Below, piece after piece: positions 10,800 to 18,198 of a DNA stretch of 64,000 nucleotides. The notes beneath the pieces were generated by a model. It saw only the letters and a program-made list of their open reading frames with translations. It searched no databases and was not told where the DNA came from. The number at the start of each line of letters is the position of its first letter. Within the stretch, counting starts at the first letter, position 1. A program made the position numbers and the translations under genes. This stretch comes from Thermodesulfovibrio thiophilus DSM 17215 (GTDB lineage: Bacteria > Nitrospirota > Thermodesulfovibrionia > Thermodesulfovibrionales > Thermodesulfovibrionaceae), in contig NZ_AUIU01000013.1 of the NCBI RefSeq assembly GCF_000423865.1, positions 62,001-126,000 of the forward strand, in the 5' to 3' direction.

Positions 10800-11354
10800 A
10801 TGAAAAAAAATCTTGCTGATATCATTGAAAGTTTATTCGAAAATAAAAGTACAGGATTTCTTTCAATAGTTCTTAACTCAGAGAAAAATCTTATAAAATT
10901 TTATTTCAAAAATGGAGATATTTATCATATATCTTTTGGATTTAAAAAAGGTGCGCAGTGTATTAATGAACTTCTTTCTAAAGAAACCGAACAATGTAAC
11001 TTTATTCCCATGATTACTGTTGATATGACGAGTGATGATATCCCTTCAACTGAAAAAATTATTGAAATGCTACGCGATATGAATAAATTTATTAATATAA
11101 CTGAAGCTATGTCTCCTTCAGCGGATTTTGGAAAAGTAAAAGAAGGACTAAAAATAGCTTTAATTAAACAAATTGGTCCTATAGGGGGTAAACTTATAGA
11201 AAAAACAATTCAGGAAAAATGGATGCCTTCTTCTCCTCCTTCAAAGGAGGATTTTCTGAAACTGATTGATATGTTAAAAGATGAAATAGAAGACTCTTCC
11301 GGAAGGCGAGAGTTTTTAATTGAAGCAAATAAATTACTGGAGGTATATAGATGA
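10800..11354 (+). CDS. DUF4388 (PATAN)-like protein of the chemosensory cluster
   Basis: A 184-residue cytosolic protein. The N-terminal 60 residues (NKSTGFLSIVLN..., KFYFKNGDIYHISFGFKKGAQCINELL) resemble the DUF4388/PATAN fold, in which a small beta-sheet domain reads out the state of response regulators. The C-terminal part is helical, with a conserved-looking IKQIGPIGGKLIEKTI. I do not recognise a catalytic motif. It overlaps the next gene by four bases, so it likely belongs to the chemosensory operon. The function is unknown; a signalling adaptor is the best guess. Confidence 0.6.
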   Translation: MKKNLADIIESLFENKSTGFLSIVLNSEKNLIKFYFKNGDIYHISFGFKKGAQCINELLSKETEQCNFIPMITVDMTSDDIPSTEKIIEMLRDMNKFINITEAMSPSADFGKVKEGLKIALIKQIGPIGGKLIEKTIQEKWMPSSPPSKEDFLKLIDMLKDEIEDSSGRREFLIEANKLLEVYR

Positions 11355-12481
11355 AAATAGAACTTGGATTAAAAACAGGAATAGCTTTGCCTCTTTTGGC
11401 AATTTTAATTATAGGTATGAGCATATTGGTTGTTTTCAACTACCTAAGTCAGATAAATATTTTACAAAAGGAGGAAGCGCAGAGTATTGAATCATCTATT
11501 AACACAGCTCAATTTTTTATTGAGACCGCGGGAATTCATTATCAACAGATGGCTGCGTTGGTTGCTAATATGCCAGATATTCAGGAAACTCTCAGCAAAA
11601 AAGATAGGAATCGTTTAATAGATAAATTGCTTCCGACTTTCAATTATTTACATGAAAATTTTGGACTTGCTCAATTTCATCTCCAAATACCTCCTGCAAC
11701 CTCTCTTGTTAGGCTTCATGACCTTGCTCGTTTTGGAGATGACCTTTCAACATTTCGTGAAACGGTGCTTCAAGTAGAAAAAACTAAAAAAGGTGTAAGA
11801 GGACTTGAGCTCGGGGTTGGCGGAGTTGGATTAAGAGGTGTAGAACCTGTATTTTATAAAGATAATTATGTTGGAAGTGTTGATTTTGGTGGAGGATTAA
11901 AAACAGAATTTGAACAGATTAAAAAAGCTATAAATGCAGATTTAGGAGTTGTTCTATACCAACAGCCACTACAAAAATGGCCTGGACTGCAAGATATAAA
12001 GGAACGTTTTGGTGAATTTGTTCCTATTTATTTTACTGCTAAAGATCCGAAATTATTTATTTCTGAATCGGCTTTAAAAGAAGCTGCACAGTCTAAAGAA
12101 AAGTATTATATAGAGTATGTTTCTAAATTTGGAAAAGACTATGCTGTTGTTTATACTCCTTTTAAAGATTTCTCCGGTAAAACTGTTGGTTTTATGTATA
12201 TTATTAAAGAGAGAATTCTTACTCCTGCAAGAATTTTCACCATTCTTGGTATAAATGTGTTTGTGTATGCACTCATGCTGGTGCTGATTGCTGTTGTTAT
12301 CGGCTATTTCATGAATAAATATGTTATAAATCCAATAGTGACACTTACGAAAACTGCAGATGAAATATCAATGGGTAAAACAGCTCAAAAGATTGAAATT
12401 AAGAATGCCAGAGGAGAAATTGCCGTACTTGCCAAAGCGATTGAAAGGATGCGTATTACAATGAAAAAACTTCTTGAATAA
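11351..12481 (+). CDS. dCache-HAMP membrane sensor protein without output domain
   Basis: A 376-residue membrane protein. TM1 is at about 11-32. A large extracytoplasmic double-Cache domain runs to about 290, with PPATSLVRLHDLARFGDDLS and GLELGVGGVGLRGVEPV typical of dCache_3 chemoreceptor sensors. TM2 is at about 293-317, followed by a HAMP domain to about 372. The protein then ends four residues later: there is no methyl-accepting, kinase or cyclase domain. The stop is clean and the next gene follows after 10 bases with its own start, so this does not look like a frameshift. It may pair with another receptor through HAMP. Confidence 0.85.
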   Translation: MKIELGLKTGIALPLLAILIIGMSILVVFNYLSQINILQKEEAQSIESSINTAQFFIETAGIHYQQMAALVANMPDIQETLSKKDRNRLIDKLLPTFNYLHENFGLAQFHLQIPPATSLVRLHDLARFGDDLSTFRETVLQVEKTKKGVRGLELGVGGVGLRGVEPVFYKDNYVGSVDFGGGLKTEFEQIKKAINADLGVVLYQQPLQKWPGLQDIKERFGEFVPIYFTAKDPKLFISESALKEAAQSKEKYYIEYVSKFGKDYAVVYTPFKDFSGKTVGFMYIIKERILTPARIFTILGINVFVYALMLVLIAVVIGYFMNKYVINPIVTLTKTADEISMGKTAQKIEIKNARGEIAVLAKAIERMRITMKKLLE

Positions 12482-12491
12482 GGAGTAAGAA

Positions 12492-13751
12492 ATGGGAGAG
12501 GGAAAAATTTTAGTAGTAGATGACAGCCCTCTTGTAAGAAAATTAGCTGAAATTTCTTTACAGGAAGCTGGATACGAGGTTTATACAGCAAATAATGGAG
12601 AAGAAGGGTTAAAAATTGCAGAAACTGTTAAACCTGATCTTATCTTAGTAGATTTTATAATGCCTAAAATGACAGGTTCTCAATTATGTAAGCTTATAAG
12701 AGATCATGAAACTCTTAAAGATGTTCCAATTATTTTAATTACAGGAAAAGGTGAAACAGTAGGGCAGACATTTATTGAAAAATATAAAGTTTTAGACTAC
12801 TTTATAAAACCTTTTAAATCCGAAGATCTTGTAGAGAAAGTTAAATCAACATTGCATAAAATTCCTGAGAGTTATGTAATGCAAGAAGAAGAGATAAAAG
12901 AACTTGAAGAAATTGATTCTTCTTTGAATAGCTCTGAAGTTGAAGAAATCTTATCTTTAGAAGACGGTGAATCTTTGCAAATTTCAGATCAAGAGATTCC
13001 TGAAGAAATTCAATTGAATGAAGAGGTATCTGAAGAGTTAACAGGTGAGTTGAAAGCTCAAGAAATAAAAGATAGCATAGAAATGCCCGAGCAATCAGAG
13101 TTACAAATCTCTGAAGACACGGAAATTTCTAAAATACATGAAATAGAAGATGTTAAAGACTTACAATCACAAATAGAAGAAACTTCTTCTATACAGTTTG
13201 ATGAAGAAATTCCAACATTACATGAAAATGTTAAAGATGTTGTGTCTGAACCAAAACAGGATGTGGTTAAATCATTTTATGATATAACTGAAATAGAAAA
13301 ATTAATTGAAAACAAGCTTAATATGTTCTCAGAAAGATTTATCTCCGCATTTGATGCTTCAGTTGAAAAAATCTTGAAAAAATATGGTTTAATAAAAGAT
13401 CCATCTCTAGTTCTTTCAGGAAATTTAAAATTATTTAAGCTTTCTGAAATTTTTGCTTTAATAAATTCACATAAATTAACAGGTCTTTTCGGAGTGCATG
13501 ATACGGGAATAGTTTATGAATTTCTATTTGTAGATGGTCAGATTATCTATGGAATATCAGATTTACAAAAACGAAAACTCGGGTTTAAATTGCTCAATGA
13601 ATTTCCTCAAGATGAAATAAAAAATATAACCAGTGAAGCGATATCTGCTTTAATAAAATCTAAAAATGGTACTTTTATTTTTGAATCAAAACAGTTTTCT
13701 GATAGTTGTATTTTGAATAGAACGAAATATAATCCTTTAGAGTTTTTTTAA
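12492..13751 (+). CDS. Response regulator with REC, acidic linker and DUF4388 (PATAN) domain
   Basis: A 419-residue cytosolic protein. The REC domain (about 4-120) has the acidic pair Asp10-Asp11, the phosphoacceptor Asp54 in LILVDFIMP and Lys in YFIKPF. A long, very Glu-rich linker covers about 130-265. The C-terminal DUF4388/PATAN domain (about 305-419) begins SLVLSGNLKLFKLSEIFALI. REC-PATAN proteins are known in motility and exopolysaccharide control in Myxococcus and cyanobacteria. It most likely receives phosphate from the CheA encoded downstream. Confidence 0.88.
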   Translation: MGEGKILVVDDSPLVRKLAEISLQEAGYEVYTANNGEEGLKIAETVKPDLILVDFIMPKMTGSQLCKLIRDHETLKDVPIILITGKGETVGQTFIEKYKVLDYFIKPFKSEDLVEKVKSTLHKIPESYVMQEEEIKELEEIDSSLNSSEVEEILSLEDGESLQISDQEIPEEIQLNEEVSEELTGELKAQEIKDSIEMPEQSELQISEDTEISKIHEIEDVKDLQSQIEETSSIQFDEEIPTLHENVKDVVSEPKQDVVKSFYDITEIEKLIENKLNMFSERFISAFDASVEKILKKYGLIKDPSLVLSGNLKLFKLSEIFALINSHKLTGLFGVHDTGIVYEFLFVDGQIIYGISDLQKRKLGFKLLNEFPQDEIKNITSEAISALIKSKNGTFIFESKQFSDSCILNRTKYNPLEFF

Positions 13752-13763
13752 AAAGTATTAAAA

Positions 13764-13783
13764 TGATATAATGAAAATTATAT
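13764..13783 (+). promoter_or_regulatory. Extended -10 promoter inside an inverted repeat, upstream of pilH-like gene
   Basis: TGA at 13764-13766 directly precedes TATAAT at 13767-13772, an extended -10. The same bases form an inverted repeat, ATATAAT (13766-13772), GAAA loop, ATTATAT (13777-13783). An internal start here could raise expression of the phosphotransfer genes over the sensor genes upstream. The all-AT stem is weak as RNA structure. Confidence 0.4.
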
Positions 13784-13798
13784 AGAGAGGAGAGGAAA

Positions 13799-14164
13799 AT
13801 GGTTAAGATCCTTATTGCTGAAGATTCTAATGTAGATGCAAAATATATTGAATCCATTCTTTCAGACAAGGAATACAATCTAGTTTTTGCAAAAGATGGT
13901 GAAGAAGCAGAGAATTTACTCAAGCAGGAAAAATTTGATCTCGTAATTTTAGATGTGGTTATGCCCAAAAAAAATGGATTTCAGATTTGCAGAGAAATCA
14001 AGAAAAATGATGAGACAAAAGATATACCTGTAATTCTTGTAACATCTAAAAGTGAGGATGCTGATAAATTCTGGGGTAAGATGCAGGGTGCTGATGAGTA
14101 TATTATAAAACCTTTTGAACCAATAGATCTATTGGTTGCTATAAAAAAATGTCTGAAGAAATAA
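13799..14164 (+). CDS. CheY-like response regulator, PilH-like
   Basis: A 121-residue single REC domain with Glu8-Asp9, phosphoacceptor Asp52 in LVILDVVMP, Thr in LVTSK and Lys in YIIKPF. The DKFWGKMQGADEY segment before the lysine is characteristic of PilH-type regulators of twitching motility. A good Shine-Dalgarno (GAGAGGAGAGG) precedes it. It overlaps the cheW gene by 16 bases. Confidence 0.88.
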   Translation: MVKILIAEDSNVDAKYIESILSDKEYNLVFAKDGEEAENLLKQEKFDLVILDVVMPKKNGFQICREIKKNDETKDIPVILVTSKSEDADKFWGKMQGADEYIIKPFEPIDLLVAIKKCLKK

Positions 14165-14559
14165 AACAATCAGAAAAATTTTACTGTGTTTTTGGTATAG
14201 GAGAAAGAGAATTTCTTATCCCAAGGGAAAGTGTGGTTCAGGTCCTGGATATAACTAGAATATTTCCAATTCCTGGAGCTCCTGAATATATAGTCGGTGC
14301 CTTACCTGTAAGAGGTAAAATTATTCCTGCGATAGATTTAGCTAAAGTTTATAATATTGAAAGATTAAATTACTCTGATAAAAAATTACTGGTTATTGAT
14401 GTAAAAAATGAACAAATAGGAATTTTATCTGATATTGCGCCATTTTTTGTTAGTTTTGAATCTGATATAGTCGTTGAAGATTTTATTGATCCTGAACAGT
14501 TATTTGAACGATTGAAAGTTAATTCTCAAAAAAATTCAGAAAATAGGAATGATCAATAA
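14149..14559 (+). CDS. CheW-like chemotaxis adaptor (PilI-like)
   Basis: A 136-residue CheW domain, the adaptor that couples receptors to CheA. Family features are FYCVFGIGEREFLIPRESVVQV, the VPGAPEYI-like IPGAPEYIVGALPVRGKIIPAIDL segment and LLVIDVKNEQIGIL. It lies between the PilH-like regulator and cheA and overlaps both neighbours, so the three are tightly coupled. The organisation resembles Pil-Chp or Frz systems more than flagellar chemotaxis. Confidence 0.9.
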   Translation: MSEEIKQSEKFYCVFGIGEREFLIPRESVVQVLDITRIFPIPGAPEYIVGALPVRGKIIPAIDLAKVYNIERLNYSDKKLLVIDVKNEQIGILSDIAPFFVSFESDIVVEDFIDPEQLFERLKVNSQKNSENRNDQ

Positions 14560-16786
14560 ATCCGAGCTTATAAAATATTTTCTTTTAGAAGCTGATGAAT
14601 GTGTTAATACACTAATCGAAGCGATTGAAGAACTTGAAAAAAATGGATACGATAAAGAGGCAATTGAAGCTCTTTTCAGGGTAACTCATACTTTAAAGGG
14701 TTCTGCATCTATAGTTAAATTTGATAAAATTGCAGAATTATCTCATAAACTTGAAGACCTTTTCGAAGCTTTATTGAACCAAGAACTCAATTTTGACAAC
14801 TCTTTAATTTCTCATATTAAAAAAATTATTAATTTAATTGTTACTCTTGTAAACGAAGTACATGAAACAGGCGAAGAAAAAAGCAATATTGATCAAGAGT
14901 TGATAGAATTAATTGATGATATTCTATCAAGCAAAGAGATGCCTGTAAAACAATACGAACCTACAACTTTTGAAGTTTTGCCAATAACCAATACTGTAAG
15001 GGTTGAACTTGGACTAATTGAACATATATTTACTTCATTGGGCGAAGTTCTTGTCCAGAAAAATACAATAACAGACAGAGAACGAGAATTATTAAATATT
15101 GTTGAAGAAATTTCACAAAGTAGTAGAAGGCTTTTAAAAGAAATTGCTGATTTTTCTGATAGATACTGGTTGGCTCAACAGGATAGTGGACAAAAAATAA
15201 CAGATATTTTCTTTACTGATTTTAGTGACTTAGAATTTGATCGATATGATGAATATCATATTTTTTTAAGAAAAATTCAGGAAATAACAAATGATATAAC
15301 AGATGGAATAAATTCTTTACTTGTTTTCTCTGAAAATCTTTCTTATAACTTTAAGTCTCTTGGAAGAGAGATTAGTTTTTTGAAAGACAGTCTGCTTGAA
15401 ATAAGAATGATACCAATTGGAAAACTTTTACATAGAATATGTGAAGCGATCAAGGATACGGCGAAAGATATTGGTAAAAATATTGAAATAGAAATTAAAG
15501 GAGCAGAAATAAAAATTGATAAGCCGGTTTTTGAATCATTATATGAACCAATTCTTCATATTCTTCGTAATGCTATTAAACATGGAATTGAATTTCCTGA
15601 AGAAAGAGTTAGAAAAGGCAAACAACCAATAGGTAATATAGCTATTAATCTTAAAAAAGAAGGTAACTATGTAGTTATTAATATTAAGGATGATGGTAGA
15701 GGCATAGATATTGAAAAGGTAAAAGAAACTGCTATTGTTAGAGGATTGATTTCTTCTAAAGATGCTTCTATCCTTCCAGAGGACGAGATTTTGTCTTATA
15801 TATTTGCTTCGGGTTTTTCAACTTCAGATGAAATAGACCTTCAGAGTGGAAGGGGCATGGGACTTAATATTGTTAAAACTACAATTTTAAAACTTAAAGG
15901 TACAATAGAAGTTTCTTCAGAACTGAATAAAGAAACAACATTTACAATAAAAATTCCTCAATCATTAACTGTAAACAATCTCCTTGTGTTCAGATCATCT
16001 GACTTAGATTTTGCTATTCCTATCAATTATATTGATGAAATTTTAACCATTGAAGATTTCCCACAAGTTATGGAAGAACGAAATATTAATTATAAGAATA
16101 GAAATATCCCTGTTAAACTCTTTTCAGAATTTTCATTGTCTTTAAACAGTAAAGCTCTTGAAAAGGGTTATATAATTTTATTGAATTTTTCAGGAACCAG
16201 AAAAGGTCTGGTTGTGGATGATATATTAGGATACGAGGAAGCAACAGTTAATAATTTTGGGAAATTTCTTGAAGGTTTAACTCAATATACAGGTTATTTT
16301 ATATCAGGTAGAGGTATTCCCAGATACGTAGTAGATCCTTTAAAAATATTCGAAGAAGATATTGTAGTTACAGCCCAATACCAACCCATTCAAGAGCAGT
16401 ATTTACACTTAGGTGCTGTTCTTGTGGTAGATGATTCTATTAGTGTAAGAAAAGCTTTGCAAAATATTTTAGAAGCAAAAAAATTGAAAGTATATGTTGC
16501 CAAAGATGGCTCTGAAGCTCTTAAATTAATGGAAAATAAAAATATTGATTTATTGATAACAGACCTTGAAATGCCTGTAATGCATGGATATGAACTAATC
16601 AGTAGAGTAAGAAAAGATGCAAGATTTAAAGATGTACCTATAATTGTGCTCACTTCGCGAGGCACAAAAAAGCATGAAGAAAAAGCATTAGCTCTCGGTG
16701 CTGATGGATTTATTGTTAAGCCTTTTGATGAAGGCACGATATCCCAAATTCTTTCAAAATTTGAACTCGAAACTAATGTCTATTAA
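14549..16786 (+). CDS. cheA: Hybrid CheA histidine kinase with CheW and receiver domains (ChpA/FrzE-like)
   Basis: A 745-residue cytosolic kinase. Order: HPt domain with phosphoacceptor His47 (THTLKGSAS); a dimerisation/linker region (about 130-300); an HATPase domain with NAIKHG near residue 340, DDGRGID and GRGMGLNIV; a CheW-like domain (about 470-600); and a C-terminal REC domain (about 620-740) with DD and phosphoacceptor Asp in LITDLEMP. There is one HPt and no obvious P2 domain, simpler than Pseudomonas ChpA. cheB and cheR are absent from the cluster. Its stop overlaps the stop of the convergent receptor gene. Confidence 0.93.
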
Positions 16787-18198
16787 ACCTTAAATCTTCC
16801 TGTTACATCAATAAGTTCTTTAGACGTATTTGAAAGTGATTGAGAGATATCTGTAAGCTCAACAGTTATTTCAGATATATTATCTGTAACTTCCTTAACT
16901 CTTTGAGCGGAATTAACTTCGCTGTCTGTTATTTCTTTTTGTTTTTGAGCTATAGCATTAATTTCAGTTATAATCTGGCTGGTCTTTTTTATGATTGAAT
17001 CAATTTGTTCAAATATTGCTGTTGTCTGTGTAACTATATTTGTTCCCATTTCTACATAGTTTGTTTCTTCTTCTAGATTTTTTGTAACTGAAGTTGCTTC
17101 TTCCTGAATTGCAGTTATAATATCTGCAATATTTTTCGATGATTTAGCTGTTCTTTCAGAGAGGGTCCTGATTTCTTCTGCAATAACGACAAACCCTTTT
17201 CCTTCTTCTCCGGCTCTTGCTGCTTCAATTGATGCATTCAACGCAAGAAGATTTGTTCTGTTTGCAATTTCGCTGATTATAGTTGAAATAGTTCCTATTT
17301 CCATTAGTCTTTCTGAAAGAAGTTTCATTCTTCTGTTTATTCCCTGCACAGCTGTTCTGATTAACTGCATACTATTAATTGTTTCTGTAACAATTTCATG
17401 ACCTTTAAGTATTGAATCCAGGGCTTCCTTTGAGACATCAGTGGCAACAATGGTTTTTTCGCTTGTTTGAGTTGCAATACTTGAAGCTTCCTCAATGAGT
17501 GATGCTATTCTTTCAATTTCCTGTCGTTGTATCTGCGCACCATTTTGAAGCTTTTGAATTATTTCATGAAGAATTCTGCTTTTCTCTCCTATATCATCTG
17601 CTGAATTTTTAGCTTCTTTAACAAGTTCACTCAATCCATCTGTCATGAGGTTAAAAGCATCTGCTAGAGAACCAAATGCATCTGGAGTAACCATTGCTCT
17701 CTGTGTGAGGTCTCCTTCAGATGCTGAAGTCATAATCTGTAAGAATTTTATGATATTATTTTGCATTTCCTTCTTTTCTTCTTCTGTCTGAATAATTGTA
17801 GAAAATTTATTGATCATTTGATTAAATGCATTGGCAATTTTTTCAAATTCATCACCTGTTCTTAATTGAACCTGTTTTTCATAATTACCCCTGCTTATTT
17901 CTTCAATAGCTTCTGTAATAACAGATATAGGCAATATTATATGTTTTTTAAACCAAAATACGTTAGCTACAGAAATTACAATTAAAACAAGAGCAAACAC
18001 TCCGAGAACAGGTCCAAATTTTATAATAGTATTTATAACTCCTATTTTTTTTAGAATAAATTCATCACCATAAATATCATACCCTGTAATAATCATTCCT
18101 GCTAAAAGAACAATTGTTGATAGAATAATAGATAAACCGAATATTATAAGAAATTTTCTATAAAGAGAACTTTCTTTCTTAACAGTTTGTTTAGGCAT
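16783..18198 (-). CDS. Methyl-accepting chemotaxis protein with minimal sensor region (PilJ-like)
   Basis: A 471-residue receptor. TM1 is about 16-38 and TM2 about 62-83, leaving only about 23 residues outside the membrane, so there is essentially no ligand-binding domain. A HAMP domain follows (about 84-137), then the coiled-coil signalling hairpin with the CheA/CheW-binding tip around [20 protein letters not shown] and [16 protein letters not shown]. It is convergent with cheA, and probably feeds that kinase. The signal could come from membrane state, from the pilus, or from the dCache-HAMP protein encoded at 11.4 kb. Confidence 0.92.

Follow-up and report, generated by a model that had tools for sequence, protein, structure and literature searches.

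The window, that is, the whole stretch of DNA analysed (64,000 nucleotides), is from Thermodesulfovibrio thiophilus DSM 17215, a heat-loving, sulfate-reducing bacterium whose genome assembly consists of 18 contigs and 1.87 Mb. A chemosensory gene cluster is found at positions 10800 to 18198. Its features are listed below, with window coordinates, strand and Pfam scores.

10800-11354, + strand: DUF4388 (PATAN-like) protein, 184 aa, C-terminal domain helical; Pfam DUF4388 19.7 bits (under the cut-off, 25)
11351-12481, + strand: stand-alone dCache_3-HAMP transmembrane sensor, 376 aa, output domain absent
11471-12211, + strand: dCache_3 periplasmic domain of the sensor, residues 41-287; PF14827 98.5 bits
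12308-12454, + strand: C-terminal HAMP of the sensor, residues 320-368; PF00672 28.3 bits
12492-13751, + strand: response regulator, REC-linker-DUF4388; Pfam Response_reg 89 bits, DUF4388 36.6 bits
13799-14164, + strand: CheY-like single receiver (Pfam)
14149-14559, + strand: CheW (Pfam)
14549-16786, + strand: CheA with C-terminal receiver (Hpt, HATPase_c, CheW, REC; Pfam)
16783-18198, - strand: minimal chemoreceptor (MCP), 471 aa, with TM helices, HAMP and signalling hairpin; convergent with CheA

By Pfam, genes of a Tfp/PATAN-type chemosensory system are present in the window: a CheA with receiver, CheW, CheY and a regulator that carries DUF4388, a domain which we take to be PATAN. A pilus retraction ATPase of the pilT family is also encoded in the host genome, where TIGR01420 gives two matches above cut-off (480 and 364 bits).

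The sensor at 11351-12481 ends almost directly after its HAMP domain, with 8 residues and then a TAA stop codon. HAMP is thus the last domain after the transmembrane segments, as in HAMP-terminated membrane receptors of the Af1503 type. The predicted model resembles dCache ligand domains of the PctA/Tlp3 type. Of the 13 HAMP matches in the host genome, that of the sensor is the only one whose frame leaves no room for an output domain; the shortest of the other frames has about 475 aa.

In each of the 16 Thermodesulfovibrio genomes, the sensor orthologue terminates at this point behind HAMP. Ten other members of the genus have proteins of 375-376 aa with 56-73% identity. In five further species some 100 residues of the Cache region have been lost, which reduces the protein to 274-276 aa and leaves the HAMP end as it is; in these shortened sensors (L047, L051, L052, L055, L056) the dCache domain has become an apparent sCache. 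The same end is found in distant orthologues (G062, 44% identity; G189, 38%; G222, 37%; G193, 37%) and in that of an uncultured delta-proteobacterium (38%), which is also tailless, and the terminal motif RMR..MKKLLE is largely kept in them. A frameshift or sequencing error at the end of the gene, the caveat attached to the first-pass annotation, was rejected because the stop is kept in the 16 genus genomes and in five distant relatives; moreover, the frame beyond the stop is closed and contains no receptor sequence, and an AAGGAG ribosome site that belongs to the following gene overlaps the sensor stop. The tailless design is therefore real and conserved. Two other proteins noticed in related genomes end with HAMP or shortly behind it: one of 383 aa in G189, which has an extended N-terminal sensor region and overlaps the next gene (L223:1992-3143, - strand), and a 240-aa TM-HAMP protein in G150 (L219:1133-1855, + strand). 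HAMP sensors without a tail may be more frequent than has been described.

The receptor at 16783-18198 has transmembrane segments near residues 16-34 and 64-82, separated by an outer loop of some 25-29 residues, then two HAMP stretches and an MCPsignal domain at residues 255-437 (118.9 bits). A transmembrane hairpin, HAMP and signalling domain in the absence of a sensor domain is the layout of the receptor half of bipartite receptors. The first-pass annotation had read the locus as a split chemoreceptor, with a sensor that stops after dCache and HAMP, a receptor with two membrane segments, a short loop, HAMP and a full signalling hairpin, and a CheA-CheW set flanked by the two. The domain matches agree with this description of both proteins, and CheW and CheA do lie between them.

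The minimal receptor is found in 16 of 16 genomes of the genus. Its outer loop (window 17965-18090; ∼25 residues, TGY.IYGEEFI.KK) is well conserved there, and this sequence pattern suggests that the loop has a contact of its own. Elsewhere in the order, MCP orthologues are mostly full-length (544-654 aa) and align only from TM2 or HAMP onward; true minimal MCPs are those of the genus and of G222, G189 and G115. In the MCP orthologues examined, no dCache_3 of the window type was found that would attest to fission of one ancestral MCP into sensor and receptor, and the in-chain heme MCPs described below are not the nearest kin of the stand-alone sensors. The periplasmic domain of the MCP may have been lost once, which is compatible with the MCP tree. 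Two candidates were discarded: a presumed minimal MCP without sensor in G299, whose gene spans an assembly gap and starts with a Cache-like domain, and the MCP that adjoins the sensor in G062, which has a very long branch in the tree and is not orthologous.

Gene order in the genus is DUF4388, sensor, REC-DUF4388, CheY, CheW, CheA and the convergent minimal MCP. The exceptions are G009, without DUF4388, G008, without CheY and the CheA receiver, and G011, which is cut by contig ends. In the G008 locus (L049:5915-8072) the CheY gene is missing and CheA, of 582 aa, stops before the receiver. Sensor and minimal MCP are usually in one cluster across the genus; where measured in the genus, as in the window, some 4.3 kb separates the two genes, which lie on opposite strands. 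A gene resembling fhs, so named from its sequence, flanks the minimal MCP in many Thermodesulfovibrio, with acs at this place in the window.

The DUF4388 gene at 10800-11354 is joined to the sensor gene by an overlap of its TGA stop with the sensor ATG (ATGA at 11351-11354). In a profile comparison its product weakly resembles the DUF4388 domain of the regulator at 12492-13751, and its AlphaFold model has a pLDDT of 88; a fold search of the PDB with this model returned no match. In each of the 14 genus loci where spacing was measured, the two genes overlap by 4 bp or are 0-1 bp apart. Among genomes of the order other than those of the genus, a DUF4388 homologue is present in 13 of 13 that have a tailless Cache-HAMP sensor, as against 2 of 147 that do not (Fisher 2e-17, a value that ignores kinship among the genomes). 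Among 18 sensor loci outside the genus, DUF4388 is directly upstream in 13, in the same locus in four and absent from one; in G318 and G315 it lies within the cluster, yet not next to the sensor. The two genes are also found together away from CheA, in G222, G189, G193, G275, G154 and the uncultured delta-proteobacterium.

Within the genus, sensor distances follow DUF4388 distances (r 0.87; partial 0.81 given CheA), as against r 0.61 and a partial value of -0.23 given CheA for the MCP. From gene content, position and these distances, the steadiest companion of the sensor is the DUF4388 gene and not the minimal receptor. The adjacency and shared history may, however, reflect linkage rather than contact, and linkage of neighbouring genes could explain part of the covariation. 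The pairing also has gaps. No DUF4388 gene was detected in the G009 genome, which is 66% complete and keeps the sensor and the minimal MCP. G128 has a second heme-Cache-HAMP gene without DUF4388 nearby (L216:3719-4603, + strand, close to an fhs-like gene). The two DUF4388-bearing genomes that have no tailless sensor of these types are G150 and G177, in which a heme-Cache is inside the MCP.

In G004 (Thermodesulfovibrio sp. N1), DUF4388 and sensor resemble those of the G001-G003 group; CheY, CheW, CheA and MCP resemble those of G006/G010. The cluster (L045) appears as a mosaic in which the genes from CheY to fhs have the other affinity, with REC-DUF4388 at the changeover. For DUF4388, the AU test rejects a tree that groups G004 with the relatives of its CheA and MCP (p 0.018); for the sensor, such a tree is not rejected (p 0.128). 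Recombination as the sole account of G004 was set aside, since with this sensor value a faster evolution after partial Cache loss is equally possible.

Outside the genus, clusters with MCP orthologues are syntenic with that of the window, and the sensor slot may be occupied by another protein. In seven genomes (G109, G055, G199, G318, G315, G128, G259) the slot holds a Tll0287-like (c-heme) protein of 293-294 aa with a C-terminal HAMP. The heme-Cache-HAMP proteins of the slot, 293-295 aa overall, end after HAMP as does the window sensor. Tll0287 has been placed in the Cache superfamily (preprint, PMC12889525), and the slot is therefore always occupied by a Cache-HAMP protein, with the input domain exchanged. 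Two further heme-Cache-HAMP clusters were found, one in G317, whose partial MCP is clearly not of the minimal type, and one in G154, cut by a contig end. G193 and G275 have the sensor, with the MCP located elsewhere. Heme domains also occur within the chain of some MCPs (G019, G150, G177); these score 87-93 bits against over 400 bits for the stand-alone heme sensors and are not their close kin. In a Nitrospiria genome (L077:9873-15566) a single strand carries genes for CheY, DUF4388, a receiver, an EAL protein, CheW and a 4HB MCP, with the sensor gene downstream of them.

A reading of these data to which we give an even chance is that an exchangeable Cache-HAMP input subunit and its DUF4388 partner form a module of a type-IV-pilus-type chemosensory system, and that this module acts on the output of CheA. 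The 376-aa protein would be an accessory input subunit. Its periplasmic Cache domain would bind a putative small ligand, and the ligand-induced change would cross the membrane to HAMP, which would be the entire cytoplasmic output and act in trans. The likeliest direct partner of this HAMP would be the DUF4388 protein at 10800-11354, encoded just upstream. Sensor and DUF4388 protein would then represent a two-protein input module whose Cache part is swappable (dCache, sCache or heme-sCache). The module may act on the output that CheA reaches via the REC-DUF4388 regulator, presumably the pilus motor. Two inputs would meet at one output because the DUF4388 type of domain recurs in the CheA-controlled regulator. 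PATAN response regulators contact PilB1 and PilC in Synechocystis (PMC12288463). In Thermodesulfovibrio the module is probably the main periplasmic sensor of the cluster, since the MCP there is without its own periplasmic domain. A more specific proposal, which is tentative and somewhat doubtful, is that the tailless Cache-HAMP protein drives the DUF4388 effector directly, so that ligand input to the pilus bypasses CheA phosphorylation through a Cache slot that can be refilled.

The interaction suggested in the first-pass annotation was a different one. The HAMP of the sensor would pack against that of the minimal MCP, and ligand binding to one protein would drive the hairpin of the other, resulting in a two-protein receptor. 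Such a HAMP-HAMP receptor is rather unlikely, though most plausible in Thermodesulfovibrio. In its favour, all 16 genus genomes have the two genes, G222 and G189 likewise have a minimal MCP and a dCache-HAMP sensor, and G009 keeps the sensor although DUF4388 was not found. Precedents exist in that minimal transmembrane-hairpin receptors are driven elsewhere by separate sensors (CetA/CetB, PMC2628428), and MCPs with a small periplasmic part, such as DifA, are thought to sense via other proteins (PMC2577667). The genus-wide co-occurrence is, however, that of one clade, the genes are on opposite strands, and no excess covariation of sensor and MCP is seen within the genus. Furthermore, in all eight clusters where a tailless heme-Cache-HAMP protein has an MCP in the same locus, that MCP is full-length with its own periplasmic region. 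The case named beforehand as refuting the pair was encountered in G193, where the dCache-HAMP gene occurs together with a full-length orthologue of the receptor (600 aa). The receptor of G115 is truly minimal, yet this genome is without a tailless HAMP protein, every HAMP frame in it having at least 487 aa. Sensor and minimal MCP therefore come apart in both directions, though rarely. The proposed split thus stands as a description of two proteins, one without output and one without sensor domain, conserved as a pair in the genus, G222 and G189, but not as that of two obligate halves, in view of G193, G115 and the eight heme-Cache clusters.

Another alternative, which we regard as unlikely, is a receptor of three parts, in which sensor, DUF4388 adaptor and an MCP of any length form one complex in the chemoreceptor array. 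Consistent with this, of the 13 genomes of the order outside the genus that have the sensor, 12 carry the MCP type (11 from the MCP-orthologue search, and G317 from its locus), as against 15 of 147 without sensor, and the three genes share one cluster in several families. Yet seven sensor loci outside the genus are separate from CheA, and DUF4388 and sensor may simply exploit any nearby system. It is very improbable that the sensor is a degenerate or dominant-negative relic, a receptor without tail that persists by titrating ligand or HAMP partners. The absent output and the occurrence of a few further tailless HAMP proteins in related genomes speak for such a relic, but relatives with 37-44% identity are conserved to the last HAMP residues, and other Cache types that replace the sensor end in the same way, which indicates selection on the tailless form.

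The input module proposed here has several partial parallels. CetA/CetB is a bipartite energy-taxis receptor of Campylobacter jejuni (PMC2628428), with CetA2/CetB2 in Magnetospirillum (PMC12442639). As in the window, the sensor domain and the receptor with transmembrane hairpin, HAMP and signalling domain are on separate proteins, and the receptor half has the layout of 16783-18198. CetB, however, is a peripheral PAS protein co-transcribed with CetA, whereas the window sensor is a transmembrane dCache_3-HAMP protein encoded on the other strand, and relatives of the window keep the sensor with full-length receptors. A cytoplasmic PAS sensor, adjacent co-transcribed genes and constant co-occurrence are thus all missing from the window pair. 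DifA-type MCPs (Myxococcus dif, Geobacter dif-like; PMC2577667) share with the window receptor a layout of two TM segments and a tiny periplasmic loop; they adjoin CheA/CheW and are linked to pilus functions. Unlike dif clusters, the window lacks CheC/CheD and has REC-DUF4388 as output.

Tailless HAMP proteins are also known. Af1503 of Archaeoglobus fulgidus, the prototype HAMP (PMC3585426), is a membrane protein ending in HAMP like the window sensor, but in the latter a dCache_3 domain is recognised, and its gene lies in a chemosensory cluster beside a conserved partner gene for DUF4388. The sCache_heme-HAMP protein of Pseudomonas azotoformans (preprint, PMC12889525) has two TM segments, an extracytoplasmic Cache-type domain and a cytoplasmic HAMP, as in the window, and its input domain is of the family that fills the slot in related families of bacteria. 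The window domain differs in being a dCache_3 without heme, and the genomic link to CheA and DUF4388 is added here. Cyanobacterial PATAN systems (PixG/PixE, tax1/tax3; PMC7690835, PMC12288463) combine a PatA-N-like regulator with a pilus retraction ATPase, as here; in comparison, the window adds a second, receiver-less DUF4388 protein paired with a membrane Cache-HAMP sensor.

A DUF4388 partner with an exchangeable Cache slot in pilus-type clusters was not found described in the open papers searched, nor did these yield an account of DUF4388 in signalling or an apparent study of Thermodesulfovibrio chemosensing. HAMP domains have been studied as relays within a single chain. If the proposed module is correct, a conserved family with HAMP as terminal output would display HAMP signalling in trans, and pilus-linked DUF4388/PATAN proteins would receive ligand input directly. 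Stand-alone forms reportedly account for about half of heme-Cache domains (PMC12889525), and loci of the window type provide such proteins with a concrete candidate partner gene. A distant heme-Cache-HAMP protein without output domain (L217:7290-8168, - strand) is adjoined by a gene for a 403-aa protein (L217:6006-7217, - strand) that looks by eye like a nucleotide cyclase, which might possibly represent a second kind of trans partner.
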